A stretch of DNA of 64,000 bases from a virus: IMG/VR virus record IMGVR_UViG_3300002835_000049, positions 51,353-115,352 of that record, one strand, 5' to 3'. Made by a program: the position numbers and the translations under genes. The notes beneath the pieces were generated by a model, which saw only the letters and a list, made by a program, of their open reading frames with translations, was not told where the DNA came from and did no database searches. This document shows positions 15,124 through 53,712 of the stretch, one piece after another. Each line of letters opens with the position of its first letter. Positions within the stretch are counted from its first letter, which is position 1.

Positions 15124-15687
15124 TTAATAGAATGTTTTTAATTTCATATATGGTTCCAAATTATACTTGTCTATTATCTGTTTGAAGATTTGTTGTCTGT
15201 GTCTTAAACCTAATGTATTTTTTTGAGTGATAAAACCATAACCAAATCCTGAATCCCCACTTAACCCCACAACTTTATAATAGGGTTGGTCATGAAGTTT
15301 TATTGGGTATAATCTTGCGGTGAACTTATACATCATATGGTCTTTGGCTCCGAATCTAAAATCACCCAATTCTTTTTCACCACGATGTTGTAGTCGTGTA
15401 TTATCATTTAACCCAAGTTTTTCTACCAACGCGTCATGTAAATATAAAGACTTTTTGTCTACCGACATATATGCAAGTGGTGTGTGAGTATCTTCACTGA
15501 ACTTCATAATATCTCCATCATAAAGAACACTTATTAAATAATCAATCCCACCTATTAATTTAGATGTTACATCCATCCCTAATTTTTTTAACATGGATTT
15601 CATGGAATCTTTTTTTGATTCAGATTCTTCGGATATAACCCCACCCATCATTTGTTTTACTCTATCTATGTTCTCTTGTAAGTTCAT
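15124..15687 (-). CDS. MNLQENI-leader protein
   Basis: 187 residues. MNLQENIDRVKQMMGGVISE gives I-S-E at 18-20 as a cleavage site. The following KLGMDVTSKLIGGIDYL segment resembles KMGLYYTIKLFGGYDTI in the gene at 22128, so these two are paralogues. Remaining 120 residues have no recognised fold. Confidence 0.7.
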   Translation of the reverse strand: MNLQENIDRVKQMMGGVISEESESKKDSMKSMLKKLGMDVTSKLIGGIDYLISVLYDGDIMKFSEDTHTPLAYMSVDKKSLYLHDALVEKLGLNDNTRLQHRGEKELGDFRFGAKDHMMYKFTARLYPIKLHDQPYYKVVGLSGDSGFGYGFITQKNTLGLRHRQQIFKQIIDKYNLEPYMKLKTFY

Positions 15688-15690
15688 AAT

Positions 15691-16125
15691 TTATATCTTT
15701 ATTTTACCAACAAAACATATTATTGACGTTAAACCTAATTCTCTTAACGCGTTTGCTCTGTGTGTCCCATCAATAATATCATACTCTTTAGTTAAAACTA
15801 TTGGTGGATATGATTGTAATTCTTTGAATAATTCTATATATTCCTCTAAATCATCTTCATCAATTTGATATACATCCATATCTATCTCATCAATAGGTAT
15901 CTCTCTTACAACATAATACGGGTATTCCTCAATTCTATCCCCTAAATCCCCCTCCCAAAAATCTTCCTTTCTTTTATAATGTAACTTTTGGACATATGTA
16001 TAAATTTCCGATTCTTCATATACATCACCAACCATTACATTTGTGTTTGTAAATATGTGTGAGGTATTCTCATTAATAACCCCCATCATTTGTTTTATCC
16101 TGTTTGTTTGCTCTTGTAAGTTCAT
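15691..16125 (-). CDS. MNLQE-leader ParB-like protein
   Basis: 144 residues. Leader MNLQEQTNRIKQMMGVINE (I-N-E at 17-19), then a ParB/sulfiredoxin-like domain: IPIDEIDMDV, PPIVLTKEYDIIDGTHRANA with DGTHRA at 119-124, and ELGLTSIICFVG. This fold binds nucleotides and, in phage and plasmid proteins, can be a nuclease, CTPase or kinase-like switch. A ParB-like domain with a packaging-type leader suggests a protein delivered with the virion (inference). ATATTTAT box 4 nt before the ATG. Confidence 0.8.
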   Translation of the reverse strand: MNLQEQTNRIKQMMGVINENTSHIFTNTNVMVGDVYEESEIYTYVQKLHYKRKEDFWEGDLGDRIEEYPYYVVREIPIDEIDMDVYQIDEDDLEEYIELFKELQSYPPIVLTKEYDIIDGTHRANALRELGLTSIICFVGKIKI

Positions 16126-16874: not shown

Positions 16875-16906
16875 TTTGGTGGGATAGTTTTTATTACTTA
16901 TCTTTG
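16875..16906 (+). promoter_or_regulatory. Host-type promoter TTTG-N20-TATCTTTG
   Basis: TTTG at 16875-16878 and TATCTTTG at 16899-16906, 18 nt before the ATG at 16925. About 40 bases here are nearly identical to the promoter at 23881-23912. Confidence 0.75.
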
Positions 16907-16924
16907 CCCTCTAATTTAATTACT

Positions 16925-17647
16925 ATGAAAAACATACACGTATTACCAACAGAAAATTCAAGTAGAGTATCTTACAACAAAGATGGTGTTTTAGAATTAC
17001 ATAGACTTCAATGGAGAAAGAATACTCAAAACATCTATATCACTTCTGATGAAGAAATTAAAGAAGGGGATTGGTATATTCATAAACAAATCAATTATTT
17101 GAGAGTATCTAATTCAAATTCTATACCAATGGATGCTAAAAAAATCATCCTAACAACAGACCAAGACCTAATCAAAGATGGTGTACAAGCTATTCCTGAT
17201 GAGTTTTTAGAATGGTTTGTTAAGAATCCAAGTTGTGAGAAAGTTGAGGTTGTTAAAGAAATTAATAAATCTATATCTGCAAAAGAACCTTATTATAAAT
17301 ACAAAATCATCATTCCAGAAGAAGAACAAAAACAACATCTTATTGATATGATGGAACAAGATGAGCAATTAGGATTGTATCAAGAACCTAAAAAAGAAAC
17401 ACTTGAAGAAGCTGTTGCTAAAAAATTATATCCACTTAATGATGGGTTTCAAGTAATGGATATTGATATTAGTGAAGAATTACAATTAGCTTTCCTTAAC
17501 GGTGCTAAATGGCAACAAGAAAGAAGTTATAGTAAGGAAGAGGTTGAAACAATAGCTAAAGATGCTTATACTATGGGTAGAAATAATATTCTTATAGGAG
17601 TATTTAATAAATGGTTTGAGCAATTTAAAAAGAAAATAAGTATATGA
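16925..17647 (+). CDS. MKNIH(V/L)LPT modular protein
   Basis: 240 residues from the ATG at 16925. Module order: MKNIHVLPTENSSR start; IYITSDEEIKEGDW; KIILTTDQDLIKDGVQAI; EFLEWFVKNPSCEKVEVV; linker with KETLEEAVAKK; NGAKWQQERSYSKEE; and WFEQFKKK near the end. I recognise this as a widespread family of unknown function in Bacteroidota phages and metagenomes. Heads a seven-gene plus-strand cluster. Overlaps the next gene by 4 nt. Confidence 0.8.
   Translation: MKNIHVLPTENSSRVSYNKDGVLELHRLQWRKNTQNIYITSDEEIKEGDWYIHKQINYLRVSNSNSIPMDAKKIILTTDQDLIKDGVQAIPDEFLEWFVKNPSCEKVEVVKEINKSISAKEPYYKYKIIIPEEEQKQHLIDMMEQDEQLGLYQEPKKETLEEAVAKKLYPLNDGFQVMDIDISEELQLAFLNGAKWQQERSYSKEEVETIAKDAYTMGRNNILIGVFNKWFEQFKKKISI
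17532..17640 (+). repeat. Repeat copy 1 of the VETIAKDAYTMGR segment
   Basis: About 95 bases from GAGGTTGAAACAATAGC onward are nearly identical to 19532-19627. Confidence 0.85.
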
Positions 17648-17934
17648 AAAAAACAATTGAAGAAGTTGCTGAAAGATTAGTAAAAGAAACTACATTGTAC
17701 GGAAGCCAAGAAGCTAGTATTGGAAGTTCTGCTAGAAGTTATTTTGAAACAGAATTACGATGTGTGTTGTTGGGTATGAAATGGCAACAAGAACAAGACA
17801 AGAAAATGTATAGTGAGTTGGTTGATTTATTGGAAAGATTAACGACAATTTATAAAGAAGATTGTCATTTAGATATTAAGTACGATAAAAAAAGATTAGA
17901 ATTTATTGAACAATTTAAAAAGAAATCATTATGA
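17644..17934 (+). CDS. Stand-alone C-terminal module (GMKWQQEQ...FIEQFKKK)
   Basis: 96 residues: TIEEVAERLVKET, GMKWQQEQDKKMYSELVD and EFIEQFKKKSL. It corresponds to the C-terminal part of the MKNIH proteins without their N-terminal domain. Overlaps both neighbours by 4 nt (ATGA), so translation is coupled. Function unknown. Confidence 0.75.
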   Translation: MKKTIEEVAERLVKETTLYGSQEASIGSSARSYFETELRCVLLGMKWQQEQDKKMYSELVDLLERLTTIYKEDCHLDIKYDKKRLEFIEQFKKKSL

Positions 17935-18680
17935 AAAACATACATTTATTACCAACAGATAAACCAAGTAGGTTATACTTAACAAAAGAAGGGTTTTATT
18001 TTTTATTACCTAACATTAAAGGTAATGCTGTGAAATTTCAACACATTTACATCACTTCTGATGAAGAAATTAAAGAAGGAGATTGGTTTTATAATATAAT
18101 ATCTTTAAAACCTGAACCATTTAAGGCTTGTGAAAATGGTAATGGATATGTAAATTGTAGTAAATATTCACATAATAGAATTGATTGTAAAAAAATCATC
18201 CTAACAACAGACCAAGAATTAATCAAAGAGGGTGTACAAGCTATTGATGAGGATTTTTTAGAATGGTTTGTTAAAAATCCAAGTTGTGAAAAGATTGAAG
18301 TAAATAAAAGTTATAGCGGTATTTATTATATCAAATATCCTTACAAAATCATCATTCCACAAGAAGAACCTAAACAAGATGAAATTGATTTTATGGCTAA
18401 TGAACTAGTTATAGAAAAAGAAAAATTTGAAAGTAAAGAAACACTTGAACAAGAAACTTGTAATTTTTGTGGTAAAACATTAAGAGAACAGATGAAAGGT
18501 TGTGGTGAAATAACTTGTTATAGACAGTTTTTACCTAAACAAGAAACACTTGAAGATTTCTGCACTAGAGAACTATCAAATTTTAATGATAATGTAAGAA
18601 ATACTCAGTTCGATTTAGGTTTTAGAACTGGAGCCATTATTGGACTTAGATTTCCAAAAGAAAGAAGTTATAATGAGTAA
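17931..18680 (+). pseudogene. MKNIHLLPT modular protein cut by in-frame TAA
   Basis: 249 residues to a TAA at 18678. It has all N-terminal modules plus a zinc-finger-like CNFCGKTLREQMKGC insert and KQETLEDF. Family members read SYSEEE at this point; here it is SYNE-stop, and the same frame continues after the stop for 48 codons to IIEQFKKK at 18827. A single GAA-to-TAA change explains it. It may still make a truncated protein, so 'pseudogene' is provisional. Confidence 0.7.
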
Positions 18681-19405: not shown

Positions 19406-19636
19406 ATGGACTTTAGAACAGAATTATCAAAATGGGGCTATAATAAAGGAAATTCAGTTGATGTTGAAACATTAATAGATGAAATATTGCCTGAATTATT
19501 TCTTAAACAAGAAAGAAGTTATAGTGAGGAAGAGGTTGAAACAATAGCTAAAGATGCTTATACTATGGGTAGATATAATATTCTTATAGGAGTATTTAAT
19601 AAATGGTTTGAACAATTTAAAAAGAAATCATTATGA
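19406..19636 (+). CDS. Stand-alone C-terminal module protein
   Basis: 76 residues: MDFRTELSKWGYNKG start unlike its neighbours, then QERSYSEEEVETIAKDAYTM and WFEQFKKKSL shared almost exactly with the gene at 16925. A hybrid that shows module exchange. Overlaps the next gene by 4 nt. Confidence 0.75.
   Translation: MDFRTELSKWGYNKGNSVDVETLIDEILPELFLKQERSYSEEEVETIAKDAYTMGRYNILIGVFNKWFEQFKKKSL
19532..19630 (+). repeat. Repeat copy 2 of the VETIAKDAYTMGR segment
   Basis: Nearly identical to 17541-17636; the following bases (into MKNIHLLPTDKPSRLYLT) also match 17907-17986 without a difference that I could find. Confidence 0.85.
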
Positions 19637-20583
19637 AAAACATACATTTATTACCAACAGATAAACCAAGTAGGTTATACTTAACAACACACGAATATAT
19701 TTTTGAAGAAGGATACTCTTTATCAACTGATGAATGTGAAAACAAACATATCTACATCACTTCTGATGAAGAAATTAAAAAAGGAGATTGGTATTATCTT
19801 CCAAGAACAAATTCAGTTTATAAATGTATTGAAGCAACTGAATTAAACTTAGAAAGAAGTTATGGCGTAGCTAAAATCATTCTAACAACAGACCCTGAGC
19901 TTATCAAAACTGGTGTACAAGCTATTGATGATGAGTTTTTAGAATGGTTTGTTAAAAATTCAAGCTGTGAGAAGGTTGAAGTAAATAAAAGTTATAGCGG
20001 TATTTATTATATCAAATATCCTTACAAAATCATCATTCCACAAGAAGAACCTAAACAAGATTGGTATTGTCCTAAATGCCAAAGTTATGTTAGTTCAGAA
20101 AGTGTAACATTTGAAGAAACACATCAAATATGTAATACAAGTGTTGTTATAAAAGAACCTAAACAATCAACTAAAGATAGAATATTATCTGAAACACCTG
20201 AGTTAGTAAAACAAAAAGTAAGAGAAACTGCTAATAAGTTAGTGGAACCTAAACAAGAAACACTTGAAGAAGTCGCATTAAAATTATATCCAATTATTTT
20301 AGAATATGATGATTGGGATAAAAATAAGCAATACAGAGATGAATGGATTAACGGTGCTAAATGGCAACAAGAAAATATACCCATTTGTATTTATGCTGAA
20401 AATATTTACTGTCATATTGAAAATGGAGTTGTAATTGTTGAGAAAAATGATAAATCGGTAATAAGTTATAGTGAGGAAGATATGAGAAAAGCTATTCAAG
20501 AAACAATTACTTTGATGAGGTATAAAGCCACTGAATTTAGAGAACACGAAAATACTATAATTGGACGATTTAAAAAGAAATAA
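19633..20583 (+). CDS. MKNIHLLPT modular protein, longest copy
   Basis: 316 residues. Standard N-terminal modules, then a WYCPKCQSYVSSES zinc-ribbon-like insert with a matching C about 20 residues on, a linker, KQETLEEVALKL, NGAKWQQENIPI and a final GRFKKK. The KSYSGIYYIKYPYKIIIPQE segment is identical to that of the interrupted copy at 17931. Last gene of the cluster. Confidence 0.8.
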   Translation: MKNIHLLPTDKPSRLYLTTHEYIFEEGYSLSTDECENKHIYITSDEEIKKGDWYYLPRTNSVYKCIEATELNLERSYGVAKIILTTDPELIKTGVQAIDDEFLEWFVKNSSCEKVEVNKSYSGIYYIKYPYKIIIPQEEPKQDWYCPKCQSYVSSESVTFEETHQICNTSVVIKEPKQSTKDRILSETPELVKQKVRETANKLVEPKQETLEEVALKLYPIILEYDDWDKNKQYRDEWINGAKWQQENIPICIYAENIYCHIENGVVIVEKNDKSVISYSEEDMRKAIQETITLMRYKATEFREHENTIIGRFKKK

Positions 20584-20609: not shown

Positions 20610-20876
20610 TTACCATAGAACCGCATTACAATAACTATGGACCGCACCTTCAGTCATATTGGTTTTATGACAATGTTGTAGATGTATTGGGTTATTTAAA
20701 AATCCCTCCGGAAACAATCGCCAATTTATTGGCTTCTTTGTTATTCTTTCAGGGGCAACCTCATCTAATGTCTCCCCACAATACATACATAGATTATCCT
20801 GTTCTTTGATATATTGTATTCTAACCTCTCTTCGTTGTTGAGGTTTTAATTTTGTATAATCTGTTGGTAATTTCAT
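20610..20876 (-). CDS. HNH/CxxC endonuclease-like protein, slightly truncated
   Basis: 88 residues. C30-x-x-C33, then HLQHCH (65-70) and H80...C83 with the MTEGAVHSYCNAVLW ending form the zinc and active-site pattern of HNH/endonuclease VII-like phage proteins. After the TAA the frame continues TAC GAG GGG AGA TAA; relatives I recall end CNAVLWQYEGR, so a CAA-to-TAA change seems to have removed four residues. The catalytic part is intact. Confidence 0.75.
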   Translation of the reverse strand: MKLPTDYTKLKPQQRREVRIQYIKEQDNLCMYCGETLDEVAPERITKKPINWRLFPEGFLNNPIHLQHCHKTNMTEGAVHSYCNAVLW

Positions 20877-20877
20877 A

Positions 20878-21444
20878 TTATTGGAGTCTCACAGGTATCT
20901 TATGTTTGGCACCATCGGTTCTTGAATATACAGCATATTGTGGTGTCATTATCATTTCATTATGCTCATCACCCAACATATTAATATAATCATTACCTTT
21001 GCCAGGTTTAAGATATGCAATAGTCATATGTGGATAATAGTCAGGGTAATCACTTGTGAATGGAAATTGTTTTAATTCCTCGTTTGTATCATTTAGATTA
21101 TCCCCCATTATATCATACTTTAATACATCATACTTTGGGCTGTTGAAACAAGATAGGTTATGAGCTTTACAATTTGTGTATGTATATTTGTTTAACACAT
21201 TAATTATGTCGTCAATACTCACCTCGTTATCGTGTAATCCGTATAATAATGTACAATGTGATTCCGGTTCTAAACCAAACCCCTCTTCTTCGGTGTATAA
21301 GTCATCAGGGTTTATCTTGTTGTGTAATTCCGTAATAGTATCAGGGTTAAAGTATAACATTGCACAAGAATATGGATATACTTGTTTGTTCTCATTTATC
21401 CCCATCATTGTTTTGATTTTTGTTATCTGTTCGTTTAATTCCAT
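20878..21444 (-). CDS. Leader-bearing 2H phosphoesterase
   Basis: 188 residues. Leader MELNEQITKIKTMMGINEN with I-N-E as cleavage site, then a 2H phosphoesterase domain: H63-C-T65 in HCTLLYGLH and H139-M-T141 in HMTIAYLKPG. This fold cleaves 2',3'-cyclic or 2'-5'-linked phosphates; the phage T4 member Acb1 destroys CBASS signal nucleotides. A tagged enzyme could enter the cell with the DNA and act before transcription starts (inference). One base before the HNH gene; a TATAAATA sequence lies upstream. Confidence 0.82.
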   Translation of the reverse strand: MELNEQITKIKTMMGINENKQVYPYSCAMLYFNPDTITELHNKINPDDLYTEEEGFGLEPESHCTLLYGLHDNEVSIDDIINVLNKYTYTNCKAHNLSCFNSPKYDVLKYDIMGDNLNDTNEELKQFPFTSDYPDYYPHMTIAYLKPGKGNDYINMLGDEHNEMIMTPQYAVYSRTDGAKHKIPVRLQ

Positions 21445-22127: not shown

Positions 22128-22592
22128 TTATTTGTAATAGTTTAATGTGTCAAGCATAAATAGGAAAACATCATTTAATGTGTGATTATCAAAATTTTTG
22201 TATTTCTCCTTAAAATCTGATTCATGATAACCCTCGTAGTAAACATCTATTACAGCAGATTCCGGACCAAAATACTCTATCTGTCGTACCTCATCGCCTG
22301 ATATACTATATGGGACAGGACTTAAACCTAATTCATATATAGAAATTCCGATTGTATTATAAGGTTTTGCTAAATGTTGAACCGAATCTTTAATGAAATC
22401 AATCTTATCTTCTTTTGTTAAATTAAAACTATCACCATACATATTCTTAATAGTATCATAACCACCGAAAAGTTTAATGGTGTAATATAACCCCATCTTA
22501 TCAATCATTTTTTGTATCTTTGTGGTCTTATCATCCTCATTGATAACCCTCATCATTTGGTGGATTCTATGTATATTCTCTTGTAAGTTCAT
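22128..22592 (-). CDS. MNLQENI-leader protein
   Basis: 154 residues from the ATG at 22592. MNLQENIHRIHQMMRVINE leader (I-N-E 17-19). KMGLYYTIKLFGGYDTIKNM matches the paralogue at 15124. C-terminal half acidic and aromatic, unrecognised. One base separates it from the flavodoxin-like gene, so it is last in a three-gene operon from 23864. Confidence 0.7.
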   Translation of the reverse strand: MNLQENIHRIHQMMRVINEDDKTTKIQKMIDKMGLYYTIKLFGGYDTIKNMYGDSFNLTKEDKIDFIKDSVQHLAKPYNTIGISIYELGLSPVPYSISGDEVRQIEYFGPESAVIDVYYEGYHESDFKEKYKNFDNHTLNDVFLFMLDTLNYYK

Positions 22593-22593
22593 A

Positions 22594-23367
22594 TTATTTT
22601 TCTTCCGGTAATTTAGTATCTTTGATAAATTTCTTATGTGAATCCTTATATGATTTTTCTGTCTCATCATTCACATCTTTGGTATATTGCCAATTCCAAT
22701 ATAAATCATCGTTTGGTTTGAATCCGTAGAACTTATGAACTTCTTTTTGTGTTTCACTTACAACTTCACCATTCCAATTCTGACCAACACAGATGAATCC
22801 TGTCTCAATATCCTCAACAAGATTTGATTCCCCCAATGTTGCGTGTCTGTTCTCAATCCAAGTCAATCTCTCAATTAAGTTTTGGTAGAACATATTGGTT
22901 TGTCCCCACCTTACCGAACTAAAGAATATAACTGCGTCTGATTCAAATAACTCTTTGGATATCTTCCATAGTTCGTCTTTAGGATTATTAATACTTGCCC
23001 AACATCTATGGTCTCCGGATGGATTCTTTTTCTTATCTTTGAGCATTGACTTTAATATCCCACAGCTGTTCCCGTCTTTTCTTGATACATTCCCCTCACA
23101 AGGAACAATATTAAGTTCGGAAACATCAATTAATACTGACTTATCACCCAACTCATCGTTAAGATACATTGCAATCATCTTTGATTTTGGTATGTCAAGG
23201 TTTTTTTCATCCCAATTATATCTGTTGGAACAACTCAATAACAATACCTTTTTCTTTTTCTTTAGAATGTCTAATGTTTTCTTTATTGATTTCCATGCGT
23301 CCGATTGAACCATCTCCTCAGCAATCATCATCTCCCTTATTCTTTGTATATTTTCTTGTAGGTTCAT
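22594..23367 (-). CDS. Leader-bearing flavodoxin-like NAD(P)H/FMN reductase
   Basis: 257 residues. Leader MNLQENIQRIREMMIAEEM. From residue 40: KKVLLLSCSNRYNW (phosphate-binding loop of the flavodoxin-like fold), LIDVSELNIVPCEG, FESDAVIFFSSVRWGQTNMF and ETGFICVGQNWNG. These match NADPH-dependent FMN reductase/multimeric flavodoxin-like proteins, which bind FMN and transfer electrons. Cysteines at 90, 102 and 122 might bind a metal. Redox cargo with a packaging-type leader is unusual. Confidence 0.72.
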   Translation of the reverse strand: MNLQENIQRIREMMIAEEMVQSDAWKSIKKTLDILKKKKKVLLLSCSNRYNWDEKNLDIPKSKMIAMYLNDELGDKSVLIDVSELNIVPCEGNVSRKDGNSCGILKSMLKDKKKNPSGDHRCWASINNPKDELWKISKELFESDAVIFFSSVRWGQTNMFYQNLIERLTWIENRHATLGESNLVEDIETGFICVGQNWNGEVVSETQKEVHKFYGFKPNDDLYWNWQYTKDVNDETEKSYKDSHKKFIKDTKLPEEK

Positions 23368-23864
23368 TCTAAATTAAGTATTTCTTGTTTAATCTTTAAG
23401 GTTTCCTGTTTTAGTAAATCAAAATACTTATATAACTCATCATTTCTATCGTATAACTTTTCTATTTCCTCTGTATAGTCCTCATCAGGGTGTGTGTTAT
23501 ATAAAAGTTCAAACACTCTATCATCATTTTTATCGTGCTCTCTTCTATAATTGTTATACTCAATCAATTTGGATATATCAATATTTAAATTCTTATCTTT
23601 GACGTAAGATATTAGTTTTTCAACTAGTGAGTCCGATGTAAAACTGTTCTCATCATCTAAGAACGATTCCACGGAACCAATCTGAAATTCAAATTTGTCT
23701 ATGTTGTTTATAATGTTTTCTATGCTCGTGTTTATAGTCACATCATTGTCCTTTGCAGACTTGTTTAACCCCTTCTCTATTTGTTTTACAGTGTATGACG
23801 ATTTAACCTCGGAGATAATCCCCATCACTTCCTGTATTCTAATTATATTTTCCTGTAAGTTCAT
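23364..23864 (-). CDS. MNLQENI-leader helical protein
   Basis: 166 residues. MNLQENIIRIQEVMGIISE leader (I-S-E 17-19 before V). The rest is almost wholly helical and charged, with EEIEKLYDRNDELYKYFDLL suggesting a coiled coil at the C-terminus. Overlaps the flavodoxin-like gene by 4 nt. First gene of the operon, with an ATATTTAT box 4 nt before the ATG. Confidence 0.7.
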   Translation of the reverse strand: MNLQENIIRIQEVMGIISEVKSSYTVKQIEKGLNKSAKDNDVTINTSIENIINNIDKFEFQIGSVESFLDDENSFTSDSLVEKLISYVKDKNLNIDISKLIEYNNYRREHDKNDDRVFELLYNTHPDEDYTEEIEKLYDRNDELYKYFDLLKQETLKIKQEILNLE

Positions 23865-24196: not shown

Positions 24197-25006
24197 ATGA
24201 AAAACATACACTTATTACCAACACAATCAAAAACAAGATTATTTTTATCTGACTATGGTAAAATACTTAATTTAGCGAGTTATCCTGAAACATTTTACAC
24301 TACAGGTCAAAACATCTACATCACTAATTCAGAAGAAATTAAAGAAGGAGATTATGTATGTGCTTCAGGTGGATTTAGATTTGTTAAAACTTTAAATAAT
24401 GATGCAAGAACATTTAAAGATGATGGAATTGTAAGCAAAGAAAGTCCATCAAACAGTTGTCATTTATCTAATTATAAAAAAATCATACTAACAACAGACC
24501 AAGACTTAATTAAAGATGGTGTACAAGCTATTGATAATGATTTCCTTGAATGGTTTGGTAAGAATCCAAGTTGTGAGGAGGTTGATTTTGAGGTTGTTGA
24601 TGATAATATACAATGGTATAAAATAATCAATCCAAGAAAGAATTTCTATTGTGGTGATGAAGTTGATTATGGTGATAAATGTTCAGAGCAATGTGTCCAA
24701 TGTGTAAACGCCACCGGTGTTGATTACGGATATCTTCCGAAAGAACATGTTGAATTTATTAATGATAATATTGATGAATTTGATGAAAAGATTAAGGAGT
24801 TCAAACAAATAGACCAAAATAATCCTGTCACAAGAGGTAGTACTGCTTTAGTATATAAACAAGAAACACTTGAAGATATTAAACTTGAAGAAGTGGTTGG
24901 GAGTAAGCATTGTCGATATTCGGTCATCGAAAATAAGTTATCTGTACTCTATAGAAATCAAGAACAAATTTTAAAAGCTATTAAAATGTTAAACAATGGA
25001 AAATAA
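24197..25006 (+). CDS. MKNIHLLPT modular protein, separate locus
   Basis: 269 residues. N-terminal modules as in the 16.9-20.6 kb cluster (IYITNSEEIKEGDY, KIILTTDQDLIKDGVQAI, FLEWFGKNPSCEEV), then FYCGDEVDYGDKCSEQCVQC, a Cys-rich insert. The C-terminal KQETLEDIKLEEVVG is followed by a different helix ending AIKMLNNGK instead of WFEQFKKK. Confidence 0.78.
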   Translation: MKNIHLLPTQSKTRLFLSDYGKILNLASYPETFYTTGQNIYITNSEEIKEGDYVCASGGFRFVKTLNNDARTFKDDGIVSKESPSNSCHLSNYKKIILTTDQDLIKDGVQAIDNDFLEWFGKNPSCEEVDFEVVDDNIQWYKIINPRKNFYCGDEVDYGDKCSEQCVQCVNATGVDYGYLPKEHVEFINDNIDEFDEKIKEFKQIDQNNPVTRGSTALVYKQETLEDIKLEEVVGSKHCRYSVIENKLSVLYRNQEQILKAIKMLNNGK

Positions 25007-45503: not shown

Positions 45504-46100
45504 TTAAAAATATGTTTGTTCAAAATATAACACCTGGAATTTATCGTTCTTATCAATTAAGTTACCAGCATTGATTAAATCATTGTATTCTACAACAGCA
45601 TTTTTTTGAAATTTTCTAAATTTAGTTAAAACATCAAAAGTTGTAATATCATCATTAAATAATGATTGTGAGTTTTTATTATACTCATTCATTAAACCTA
45701 ACTCCATTTTATATGCTCCGTGAACAATATCAATTAGGTTAGAAAAATCGTGTTTAGTTGGTGCTTGGGGTATTTCCGGTTGGACATTAAAATCCACCAT
45801 ATATTCCTGTAGAGTTTGAGCATGTGTTAATTCATCCGCCGCTTCATTTGTGAAAAATTCTGCAGCTTTCTTATAATTCATATCCTGACACCAATTGGCT
45901 GCCGCTCTATAATAATAATGAGCCGTGTATTCATCTTTAATTCTATCTGTAATAATTTTAATTGTTTTTGTATCTAATTTATACAAAGTAACCTTACTAA
46001 TTTTAGCCAAAGTATTATCAGCCTCACTTATTATTTCGTCGTTTGATGACATATTCTTAATCTGTTGGAACATTTTGTCCGTTAATGATTTATTTTCCAT
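45504..46100 (-). CDS. Ferritin-like protein with N-terminal leader
   Basis: 198 residues. Ferroxidase ligands line up with bacterial ferritin: E57 (KDEYTAHYYY), E90 and H93 (DELTHAQ), E133 (KMELG), Q165 (FQKNAVVEY); spacing 33/3/43/32 is close to E. coli FtnA (33/3/41/33). The family stores iron and removes Fe(II) with oxygen or peroxide. Residues 1-26 precede the ferritin helix and end EIISE before A27, an ideal hydrophobic-x-E cleavage site, so the ferritin may be packaged or processed. Between two leader genes. Confidence 0.82.
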   Translation of the reverse strand: MENKSLTDKMFQQIKNMSSNDEIISEADNTLAKISKVTLYKLDTKTIKIITDRIKDEYTAHYYYRAAANWCQDMNYKKAAEFFTNEAADELTHAQTLQEYMVDFNVQPEIPQAPTKHDFSNLIDIVHGAYKMELGLMNEYNKNSQSLFNDDITTFDVLTKFRKFQKNAVVEYNDLINAGNLIDKNDKFQVLYFEQTYF

Positions 46101-51401: not shown

Positions 51402-51761
51402 TTAATCTAACCCCAAGAAATGAATACCTTTATCAATAATACTACCTTCTTGAGATACACAACTTTTGAATATTTGAACATCTGAGTCAGGCATTTTACT
51501 TTGTGTTGCAGGACCCCAAATACCGTCCACAGGATAAACACCAATTTTAGATTGGTATTTACTCAATGCTTGTTTAACACTATCACCCAAGAGTCCATCA
51601 ACTTTTAGTGGTTGATTCTTATCATCTCTATGTCCTTTTTTATTTAAAAAACATTGAATACCTTTCTTTAATTCAGGACTTTCATTTTGTTCAGTAACCA
51701 ATCCGTATATTGAACGGATATCACTTCTTTCTTCTTCGGAAATTATAAATCTTTTTGCCAT
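51402..51761 (-). CDS. Leader-bearing peptidoglycan-binding protein
   Basis: 119 residues. MAKRFIISEEERSDIRSIYG leader (I-S-E at 7-9) then a PG_binding_1-type helical domain: LKKGIQCFLNKKGHR, VDGLLGDSVKQALSKYQSKI and VDGIWGPATQSKM. Such domains hold enzymes on peptidoglycan; no catalytic part is present. With the hydrophobic partner two bases downstream, it fits a wall-contact role in genome delivery or lysis. ATATTTAT box 16 nt upstream. Confidence 0.78.
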   Translation of the reverse strand: MAKRFIISEEERSDIRSIYGLVTEQNESPELKKGIQCFLNKKGHRDDKNQPLKVDGLLGDSVKQALSKYQSKIGVYPVDGIWGPATQSKMPDSDVQIFKSCVSQEGSIIDKGIHFLGLD

Positions 51762-51798: not shown

Positions 51799-51818
51799 AA
51801 GAGGTTATAACACCTCTT
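51799..51818 (-). terminator. Terminator at end of methyltransferase gene
   Basis: AAGAGGT / ACCTCTT stem and T run; the gene's stop codon lies inside it. Confidence 0.8.
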
Positions 51819-53712
51819 CTTTTAATTCTAATTTTGTCTGTTTCTTATCATCAATGAATGCTTGAACTCTTTTCCGAGCAACTTCCGTATAATCCGGAGA
51901 TAACTCAATTCCAATCCATCGTCTCTCTAATACTTCTGCCGCTACAGCTGATGTTCCACTTCCCATAAAGGGGTCAAGAACAATATCATCCTTATATGTA
52001 AGTATCTTAATCGCCTTCCCAGGTATATCCATTGAGAATGTGGCTTTAGTTAATGATTTAGTATCTGCAAAATATTCCCACCTTCCAAACACCAAGTTCA
52101 TAAACTCTTTCTTGTCCTCATCCTTATAAACCATCTTATTTTTGATGGTTCCATCTTCCTGAATTACTTTAGTTGGTTCTCCTTCCCATTGGGATTGTCC
52201 TTTAAGTAATTTCTTACTCGTTTTCTTATAAGCCAATATGATACACTCTTTTGGGTTATAAATATAGGGGCTCGACGCTGACATCCATGAGTTACCACAC
52301 CACACTAATTGTCCTGATTTTTCAACTAATAATGTTTTATTAGGTACTGACACACAATAAACTTTATCATCATAATCAATTGTGGTAACATTTTTTTTCT
52401 TTATATAACTTTGTTCTTTGTTGAGGATTTGAATTGTTGTCATTGGGTAATTAGATTTTATTATTTTACCATTCCAAAGTCTATCTTTCGCAAAATAACT
52501 ATATAATGAACAAATTCTCCCCGATTCAAATAATAATCTAAGAATTTGGTCTTTCATTATCTCACTACATACAGAAATTTTCCACAATTCATTGTCTTTA
52601 GTAAAAGACCCATCACCATAAAATATCCATAATAATAATATTTCTTTCTGTCTTTTAGACATATTAAAAACATAATCAGGTATTGTTCTTAAATTTTTAC
52701 TTTTTGTATCAAGTAAAAACGACGCCAATTGTTTTGAACAACAAAAATATTCGTTTTTTTGTTTTTTATATTCAAAATTAAATGGCAATCTCTCCAACAA
52801 TTCTTCAATTTCTTTTAAAAATTTTATTTTTGTTTGATAAATAGATATTTTGTATATACCTCGTTTAACATCATACGTTAATGAACCATCTGTTAGAAAA
52901 ATACCTAAAAATCTCATCCAATCATCCGCATCAACAATTACCGAATCTTCATTTCTATATATTTTTTTACTTCTTAACCCATACTCTACAGGAGGTATCA
53001 CAACAGTTTTCACATCCACAACATTATTTAACCCATTATGACTTCTAGGTATTGTGAAAACCTCTTGAGTTATCTCATTAAATGGTATAACGTCTATTTT
53101 AGAGTTGTCTACTCTAACCATATTATGGTTTTCTGTTATAGTAAGATTAACCGAACGAGTTTTAATATTTACTAATTTACCTTTAAATGGTTTTTCAATA
53201 TAATCAAAAGCCTTTTGATACTCAATTTCTTTAGTTGTAGGATTTAATGTCATAAATAAATCCGTCTTAATATCAACATCCTTAAAAAATTTAAGACCAT
53301 TATTTGTCATAACTTTAGTTTCATTATCATAACAACCCCAAGCAGTTTGTCTCACTCGGTGTGGTGAATCCTCAGTTAAATCAACCATCCCGTAAAATTT
53401 AAAACCAACTTCCTTCATCTTCATCCAAAATTCAGCGTTGAATAATATTCTACCTCCTCTTTCTTGAACATTCACTTCTATTGGAACATTGATGGCGATT
53501 CTTCCGTCATCCTTTAACACTCTATACGCTTCAGTTAACCATTTTGTCGTAAAATCCCAATACTCATCCATTGGAATACTATCATTATACACATCGTATT
53601 TGATGTTAACAGAATATGGTGGACTAGTCACCACTAAATCCACACAACCTTCAGGAAATGTTCCCATAACCTCAACACACTCACCATTTATAATCTTCCC
53701 TGTCTCTATCAT
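51805..53712 (-). CDS. DNA methyltransferase interrupted by an intein
   Basis: 635 residues as translated. N-extein 1-126 holds the motif IV loop SPPY (30-33) after GTFPEGCVDLVVT; C-extein 475-635 holds DPFMGSGTSAVAA (580-592) and RWIGIELSPDY, the S-adenosylmethionine motif, as in beta-class N4-C/N6-A methyltransferases. Spliced length would be about 287. The intein (127-474) sits at WG-C. Methylation could protect phage DNA from host restriction. Starts one base from the 53714 gene. Confidence 0.9.
   Translation of the reverse strand: MIETGKIINGECVEVMGTFPEGCVDLVVTSPPYSVNIKYDVYNDSIPMDEYWDFTTKWLTEAYRVLKDDGRIAINVPIEVNVQERGGRILFNAEFWMKMKEVGFKFYGMVDLTEDSPHRVRQTAWGCYDNETKVMTNNGLKFFKDVDIKTDLFMTLNPTTKEIEYQKAFDYIEKPFKGKLVNIKTRSVNLTITENHNMVRVDNSKIDVIPFNEITQEVFTIPRSHNGLNNVVDVKTVVIPPVEYGLRSKKIYRNEDSVIVDADDWMRFLGIFLTDGSLTYDVKRGIYKISIYQTKIKFLKEIEELLERLPFNFEYKKQKNEYFCCSKQLASFLLDTKSKNLRTIPDYVFNMSKRQKEILLLWIFYGDGSFTKDNELWKISVCSEIMKDQILRLLFESGRICSLYSYFAKDRLWNGKIIKSNYPMTTIQILNKEQSYIKKKNVTTIDYDDKVYCVSVPNKTLLVEKSGQLVWCGNSWMSASSPYIYNPKECIILAYKKTSKKLLKGQSQWEGEPTKVIQEDGTIKNKMVYKDEDKKEFMNLVFGRWEYFADTKSLTKATFSMDIPGKAIKILTYKDDIVLDPFMGSGTSAVAAEVLERRWIGIELSPDYTEVARKRVQAFIDDKKQTKLELKEEVL
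52291..53334 (-). mobile_element. Intein with LAGLIDADG homing endonuclease
   Basis: 348 residues. Starts C127-YDNETKVMTNNG (splicing block A); TITENHNM is block B. RFLGIFLTDGSL and LLWIFYGDGSF are the two LAGLIDADG helices, so it may cut an unoccupied allele. Ends VYCVSVPNKTLLVE...LVWCG-N474, with S475 as the first C-extein residue. The residue before the terminal Asn is Gly, not the usual His, a known but slower-splicing variant. Inserted in the motif between target and cofactor domains. Confidence 0.88.

Follow-up and report, generated by a model that had tools for sequence, protein, structure and literature searches.

An ORF on the minus strand of the window (the whole stretch of 64,000 nucleotides that was analysed) was found to encode a 2H phosphoesterase resembling Acb1, with an N-terminal leader which ends in a motif typical of prohead protease cut sites. 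On balance, this protein is taken to be an Acb1-like pro-enzyme with a T4-type capsid targeting sequence, which would be packaged, cut and injected and would then degrade cyclic-nucleotide immune signals. The leader would dock the enzyme onto the scaffold core during head assembly and a gp21-type (S77) prohead protease would cut after the glutamate of I-N-E (E18/N19). The mature enzyme would remain in the head with the DNA and be injected at infection like the T4 internal proteins, and in the new host it would cleave immune signals made of cyclic nucleotides, the 3'-5' cyclic oligonucleotides of CBASS being the most likely ones, ahead of phage gene expression. The features concerned are as follows.

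20878..21444, minus strand: 2H phosphoesterase ORF, 188 aa, Acb1-like, with N-terminal leader; ATG start
21391..21444, minus strand: leader, residues 1-18 (MELNEQITKIKTMMGINE), ending I-N-E; predicted capsid targeting sequence/propeptide
21250..21258, minus strand: first catalytic motif, H63-C64-T65; H and T invariant in 52 sequences
21022..21030, minus strand: second catalytic motif, H139-M140-T141, in the Acb1-like context YPDYxPHxT; H and T invariant in 52 sequences
20881..21390, minus strand: predicted mature enzyme, residues 19-188, after E18/N19 cleavage; cut point deduced from the starts of leaderless relatives

The ORF at 20878-21444 was confirmed as real, and its product shares 96, 94, and 78% identity with copies in three IMG/VR jumbo-phage contigs. 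As these contigs are 208-322 kb in size, the window, whose source is a partial virus record of 115 kb, most probably comes from a jumbo phage. A search of the window for tRNA genes gave none. The original prediction had assigned the ORF to the 2H phosphoesterases from its HCT and HMT pair, and this was borne out, the catalytic tetrad (HxT/HxT) being invariant in 52/52 aligned family sequences and the AlphaFold2 model (pLDDT 88) having a clear 2H fold, with a domain at residues 24-188 mostly at 85-97 confidence. The PHROGs label for the protein is 'RNA ligase', and among annotated phages it is matched best by a protein without a leader in Maribacter phages Molly and Colly (36-38% identity). When bacteria and archaea were scanned (genomes of 84,980 species), using short patterns which distant relatives could escape, just three relatives were detected; all are from metagenome bins, two of them labelled Bacteroidota, and this low number fits a viral counter-defence role.

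Immediately downstream of the enzyme gene lies a small endonuclease VII/HNH-like ORF (20610-20876), five residues shorter than the version in the 208-kb relative. The window also holds a paralogous family starting MKNIHLLPT with 'IYITSDEEIKEGDW' motifs, of which there are four copies on the plus strand (16904-17647, 17931-18680, 19633-20583, and 24197-25006), and a DNA N6/N4 methyltransferase (51805-53712) split by an intein-like insert carrying a LAGLIDADG domain.

With regard to substrate, CBASS-type cyclic nucleotides are the best guess and would seem a reasonably probable one, judging from sequence comparison. The Pfam model of Acb1 (PF23474) matched the protein at 28.1 bits against a cut-off of 27, a narrow pass, and matched 52/52 family members (E<0.01); the cut-off of Pfam 2_5_RNA_ligase2 was missed. 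A search of PDB sequences with the family profile returned Acb1 chains only. Using hhalign, an E-value of 2.5e-6 was obtained with an alignment of T4-type Acb1 and 2.4e-4 with T4 Acb1 alone, compared with 0.041 for E. coli ThpR alone (a single sequence), the Acb1 match spanning only 46 columns. Identity to T4 Acb1 is 16% over the alignment. Sequence profiles thus appear to favour Acb1. The base-stacking residues Y12, W74, and F107 of Acb1 align with Y25 (Y/F in 46/52), F100 (52/52), and Y133 (Y/F in 52/52), in an alignment that is weak outside the second motif. Residues E141 and W147 of the C-terminal lid are invariant in T4-type Acb1, whereas the protein of the window has no tryptophan, and so lacks W147, and no EPL..W motif or evident E141 counterpart was found in it. 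It is for this reason classed as Acb1-like and not as Acb1.

As modelled, the fold does not separate Acb1 from Usb1 or LigT. Foldseek placed Acb1 of BCSR5 (9q2g) first, with Usb1 and the penguinpox cGAMP phosphodiesterase close behind and 7t27 also listed; the fold score of plant CPDase equals or exceeds that of Acb1. By structural Z-score, human Usb1 reached 13.6, and the comparison of LigT with Acb1, in which a closer match to LigT would have spoken against the original prediction, ended in a tie (11.8 for LigT 5ldi and 11.8 for Acb1 9q2g). The proposed link to Acb1 is supported as regards the sequence profiles (Pfam, PDB sequences, and hhalign) and is weakened by a fold that does not discriminate and by the missing lid tryptophan. 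The further suggestion of Pycsar disarming found no support, as Acb1 and Apyc1, which degrades Pycsar signals, are separate families with different reactions (PMC9117128).

These fold scores, in which Usb1, plant CPDase and LigT do as well as or better than Acb1, also bear on a second reading, by which packaging and injection take place but the substrate is RNA ends or other nucleotides, as for LigT, Usb1 or CPDase. The enzyme would then repair or trim 2',3'-cyclic phosphate ends arising from host anticodon nucleases, or clear another nucleotide signal such as a Thoeris product. Weak matches to PF13563 (50/52 members) and TIGR02258 (37/52) are in line with this, as is the position of the leaderless copy of the Maribacter phages, approximately 4 kb from a gene annotated as the HAD domain of RNA-repair proteins, and hosts with Thoeris are suggested by the Tad3-family genes which, in three phages, lie two genes from that of the enzyme. 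However, the sequence profiles prefer Acb1, and with TIGR02258 (LigT/ThpR) the protein reaches 15.9 bits, far below the cut-off of 65.7. Action on RNA ends or on another signal is considered unlikely, but less so than the two readings that concern the leader and the head, which are taken up below.

In the preferred reading, that of a packaged Acb1-like pro-enzyme, the leader is the best-supported element. By profile search, relatives of the enzyme are encoded in at least 436 stretches of viral contigs, of which 80 were fetched and gave 53 non-redundant sequences. Leaders are present in 51/53 and are of many, very different kinds, examples being MIKLLDLLKE/EK, MENKEFKRMQKLAGLITE/EK, MKHIKLFEEFVTE/KK, MKDLIKKILKE/ET, and MKTIKDFINE/KK (with / as the predicted cut). 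They end in [LIVFM]-x-E, the E standing 7-12 residues ahead of the conserved cysteine that opens the domain (C27 in the protein of the window). This was observed in 51/53 sequences, compared with a mean of 8.7/53 and a maximum of 18 in 2000 composition-preserving shuffles; the 51 include one leaderless 'MSE' start, so that the strict test of position is passed by 50 of the leadered sequences, and a looser one by 51/51. When each leader type was represented once, 17/19 had the cut motif, compared with 2.5 in shuffles (maximum of 8 in 5000). The occurrence of leader and cut motif is far beyond chance. Mis-called starts were ruled out as the source of the leaders, since the cut-site glutamate E18 is kept in 50/52 sequences while the leader around it changes.

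Leaderless relatives (L117, L119-L121, and L008) begin at, or just past, the predicted cut point, and the non-redundant ones among them (L117, and L119 with its near-identical copies) open with MS[DE]KQTYDYG, at the cut point. No leadered copy was found in an isolated phage, the copies in Maribacter phages Molly and Colly and Tenacibaculum phage PTm1 being leaderless, and close relatives differ in their leaders by too few synonymous and non-synonymous changes for these to be of use. AlphaFold2 confidence is low across the leader (10-residue means of 54 and 47). The megaphages LR745206 and LR756502 differ in having a T4-like leader on the enzyme (MKLKKYKQFIKES and MIKKYLEFMKES), and leaders of the same kind are found on many adjacent ORFs. 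In one LR745206.1 ORF (L012:5974-7287), the 2H enzyme runs into a DnaQ/RNase_T-like exonuclease through a linker, 'KISESINENK', which comprises two consecutive L/I-x-E sites; this is possibly a polyprotein split by the prohead protease. In LR756508.1 (L010:3052-11248), several ORFs with MKLK..LLSE-type starts and an 'LYRG'-like motif surround a leaderless copy of the enzyme; these ORFs may encode ADP-ribosyltransferases (Alt-like).

It has been reported that gp21 of T4 cleaves after L/I-x-E, that its substrates in the mature virion shed propeptides of 7-65 residues, and that the first 10 residues of IPIII are enough for packaging (PMC9026906). Both a Peptidase_S77 (E 7.9e-25) and a capsid protein of the Gp23 type (1.1e-64) are encoded by the sister phage G002, a phage of 322 kb with an enzyme that shares 94% identity with that of the window. 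The N-terminal region of this capsid protein reads SFLINE/ATSDGSSG, the propeptide appearing to end LINE/A, which compares with GINE/N in the enzyme, and an ORF near the capsid gene starts MKNNKIHINE/STSDGGG. The corresponding sites of T4 are FLTE/AEIGG at residue 65 of gp23 and MKTYQEFIAE/A in IPII and IPIII. The capsid proteins of both megaphages have INE/NAY. An S77 protease was detected in 19/32 of the relatives' records, many of which are partial; no head genes were found in the window's own, partial record.

Three nearby ORFs whose bodies are unrelated start with a sequence resembling the leader of the enzyme, as do two more at 15-16 kb in the window.

22594..23367, minus strand: neighbour with the same leader type as the enzyme (MNLQENIQRIREMMIAE/E); flavodoxin/FMN-reductase-like fold, weak match
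22128..22592, minus strand: neighbour with the same leader type (MNLQENIHRIHQMMRVINE/D); body without assignment
23364..23864, minus strand: neighbour with the same leader type (MNLQENIIRIQEVMGIISE/V); body without assignment
15124..15687, minus strand: leadered ORF (MNLQENIDRVKQMMGGVISE/E); body without assignment
15691..16125, minus strand: leadered ORF (MNLQEQTNRIKQMMGVINE/N); weak ParB_N similarity

Across the ORFs of the window's record, I[TSN]E is enriched approximately 9-fold in the first 12 residues compared with residues beyond 100. The protein of 22594-23367, for which the best fold match had an E of 1.1e-3, had no match among annotated phage records; at least 251 viral stretches encode relatives, the 80 best being highly conserved (73-96%), and in these 80 relatives the leaders vary while the aligned cut-site glutamate is invariant. 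Leader-like starts ending I-S-E or V-T-E were also seen on a ferritin-like ORF (45504-46100) and on a protein with a peptidoglycan-binding domain (51402-51761). A second very frequent short start, MK[IVL]IITE[SNQ] and similar, ends I-T-E and is shared by over 20 of the record's small ORFs (window 1418-51761); it may be another capsid leader, or may be common through a paralogous family.

Leadered genes in the related phages are likewise of varied content. The domains recognised among 54 scanned ORFs with leader-like starts include ferritin, peptidoglycan binding, PD-(D/E)XK nuclease, exonuclease, zeta-toxin-like kinase, acetyltransferase, and Tad3; a Ribonuc_red_sm match in this census may be a chance match of the leader pattern to an ordinary enzyme. 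Tandem cassettes of the relatives bear T4-like leaders (MK.VKLFEEF..E). In phage G021 there is a run of approximately ten genes, nearly all leadered, in which Tad3 (68 bits, cut-off 27) lies two genes from the Acb1-like enzyme. Tad3, whose function as a type I Thoeris inhibitor is taken from the Pfam name, was detected in 5/47 related records. Four of these genes (L068:2895-3656, L158, L159, and L161) have a leader of the same kind, one ending LTDS instead of L-x-E, and the one in L157 (G004) is without leader; for three of the four leadered genes, the distance to the Acb1-like enzyme is two genes. Overall, the enzyme and its neighbours within 8 kb have the exact leader type in common only moderately often (51/598 at its own locus, a count which includes one artefactual short leader 'MSE', compared with approximately 2.9% at other loci), and such sharing was counted as support only where a cassette is evident, e.g., L068.

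It had been suggested that the leader could deliver the enzyme with the DNA, and this gained support from the swapping of leaders around a conserved prohead-protease motif, the matching capsid propeptides and the leadered neighbours, Tad3-family genes in relatives included. On this sequence evidence, packaging as a T4-type internal protein is likely, and injection also looks likely. The lack of neighbours with the exact leader type in several 8-kb neighbourhoods, the great differences in leaders among lineages and the short helix which AlphaFold2 places at residues 3-13 would also suit some other N-terminal element (an amphipathic helix that binds membranes, a regulatory N-terminus or a peptide for docking a partner) on an enzyme working inside the infected cell, like T4 Acb1. 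However, the constancy of [LI]-x-E at the edge of the domain, the similar propeptides of capsid proteins and the presence of an S77 protease specifically fit head maturation, and the leader is spread across unrelated proteins, which makes such an element improbable. A protein that is packaged and cleaved for a mainly structural or core role in head assembly, with enzyme activity secondary, would have a precedent in T4 IPIII, which also influences the rate of head assembly (PMC9026906), but is very improbable given a tetrad invariant in 52/52 sequences and relatives without any leader.

Returning to the packaged Acb1-like pro-enzyme, neither a virion-packaged Acb1 nor capsid targeting in Bacteroidota phages was found in the literature searched, nor was the combination of a signal-degrading anti-defence enzyme with a capsid leader. 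Acb1 has been described as an activity of infected cells. An enzyme which needs prior expression may be late against a fast alarm, and an injected Acb1-like enzyme, if true, would explain the success of phages against fast nucleotide alarms. More broadly, T4-type jumbo phages, probably of Bacteroidota, may use interchangeable capsid targeting leaders to load the head with whole cassettes of enzymes and inhibitors directed at nucleotide-signal immunity, among them Acb1-like phosphoesterases and Thoeris inhibitors of the Tad3 type, and alarms of the CBASS and Thoeris types would then be disarmed at DNA entry, before phage transcription; this generalisation is tentative and is given somewhat less than an even chance. 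An injected Acb1-like enzyme would also extend the internal-protein principle of T4, so far mainly tied to restriction enzymes, to signal-based immunity. The leader with its cut motif is easy to search for in sequences and offers a way to many more injected anti-defence proteins among the uncharacterised genes of jumbo phages, and the Tad3 examples illustrate that such a search catches a known inhibitor family.

Among known systems, the protein shares with Acb1 (T4 gp57B, FBB1, and BCSR5; anti-CBASS 2H nuclease, PF23474) the 2H fold, the HxT/HxT tetrad, the YPDYxPHxT context and a Pfam match above the curated cut-off, and differs in its length of 188 aa with a cleavable-looking leader and in its lid residues. 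LigT/ThpR, Usb1, and plant CPDase are alike in fold and catalytic motifs, whereas sequence matches to them fall below curated cut-offs, and we know of no capsid leader in these enzymes. T4 Acb1 itself (L017:9592-10411) starts MMEFKDFS and its relatives MKFQDFSS and MNFKEFST, which may be compared with the capsid targeting start of T4 IPI, MKTFKEFTS; the IPI gene directly adjoins the Acb1 gene, and going by these starts T4 Acb1 might be packaged without cleavage. With IPI, IPII, IPIII, and Alt of T4 the enzyme has in common a short N-terminal leader ending L/I-x-E, found on unrelated proteins in phages with T4-type heads. Ip1-3 are injected anti-restriction proteins with nothing in common except the leader (PMC12373910). 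The IPs studied inhibit type IV restriction enzymes, whereas the cargo here is a probable nucleotide-cleaving enzyme and the leaders are far more variable. Finally, Tad1, which phiKZ is said to inject in a 2026 review (PMC13282480), is likewise a jumbo-phage protein directed against nucleotide-signal immunity and said to enter with the DNA, but it sequesters signals which the enzyme of the window would cleave.
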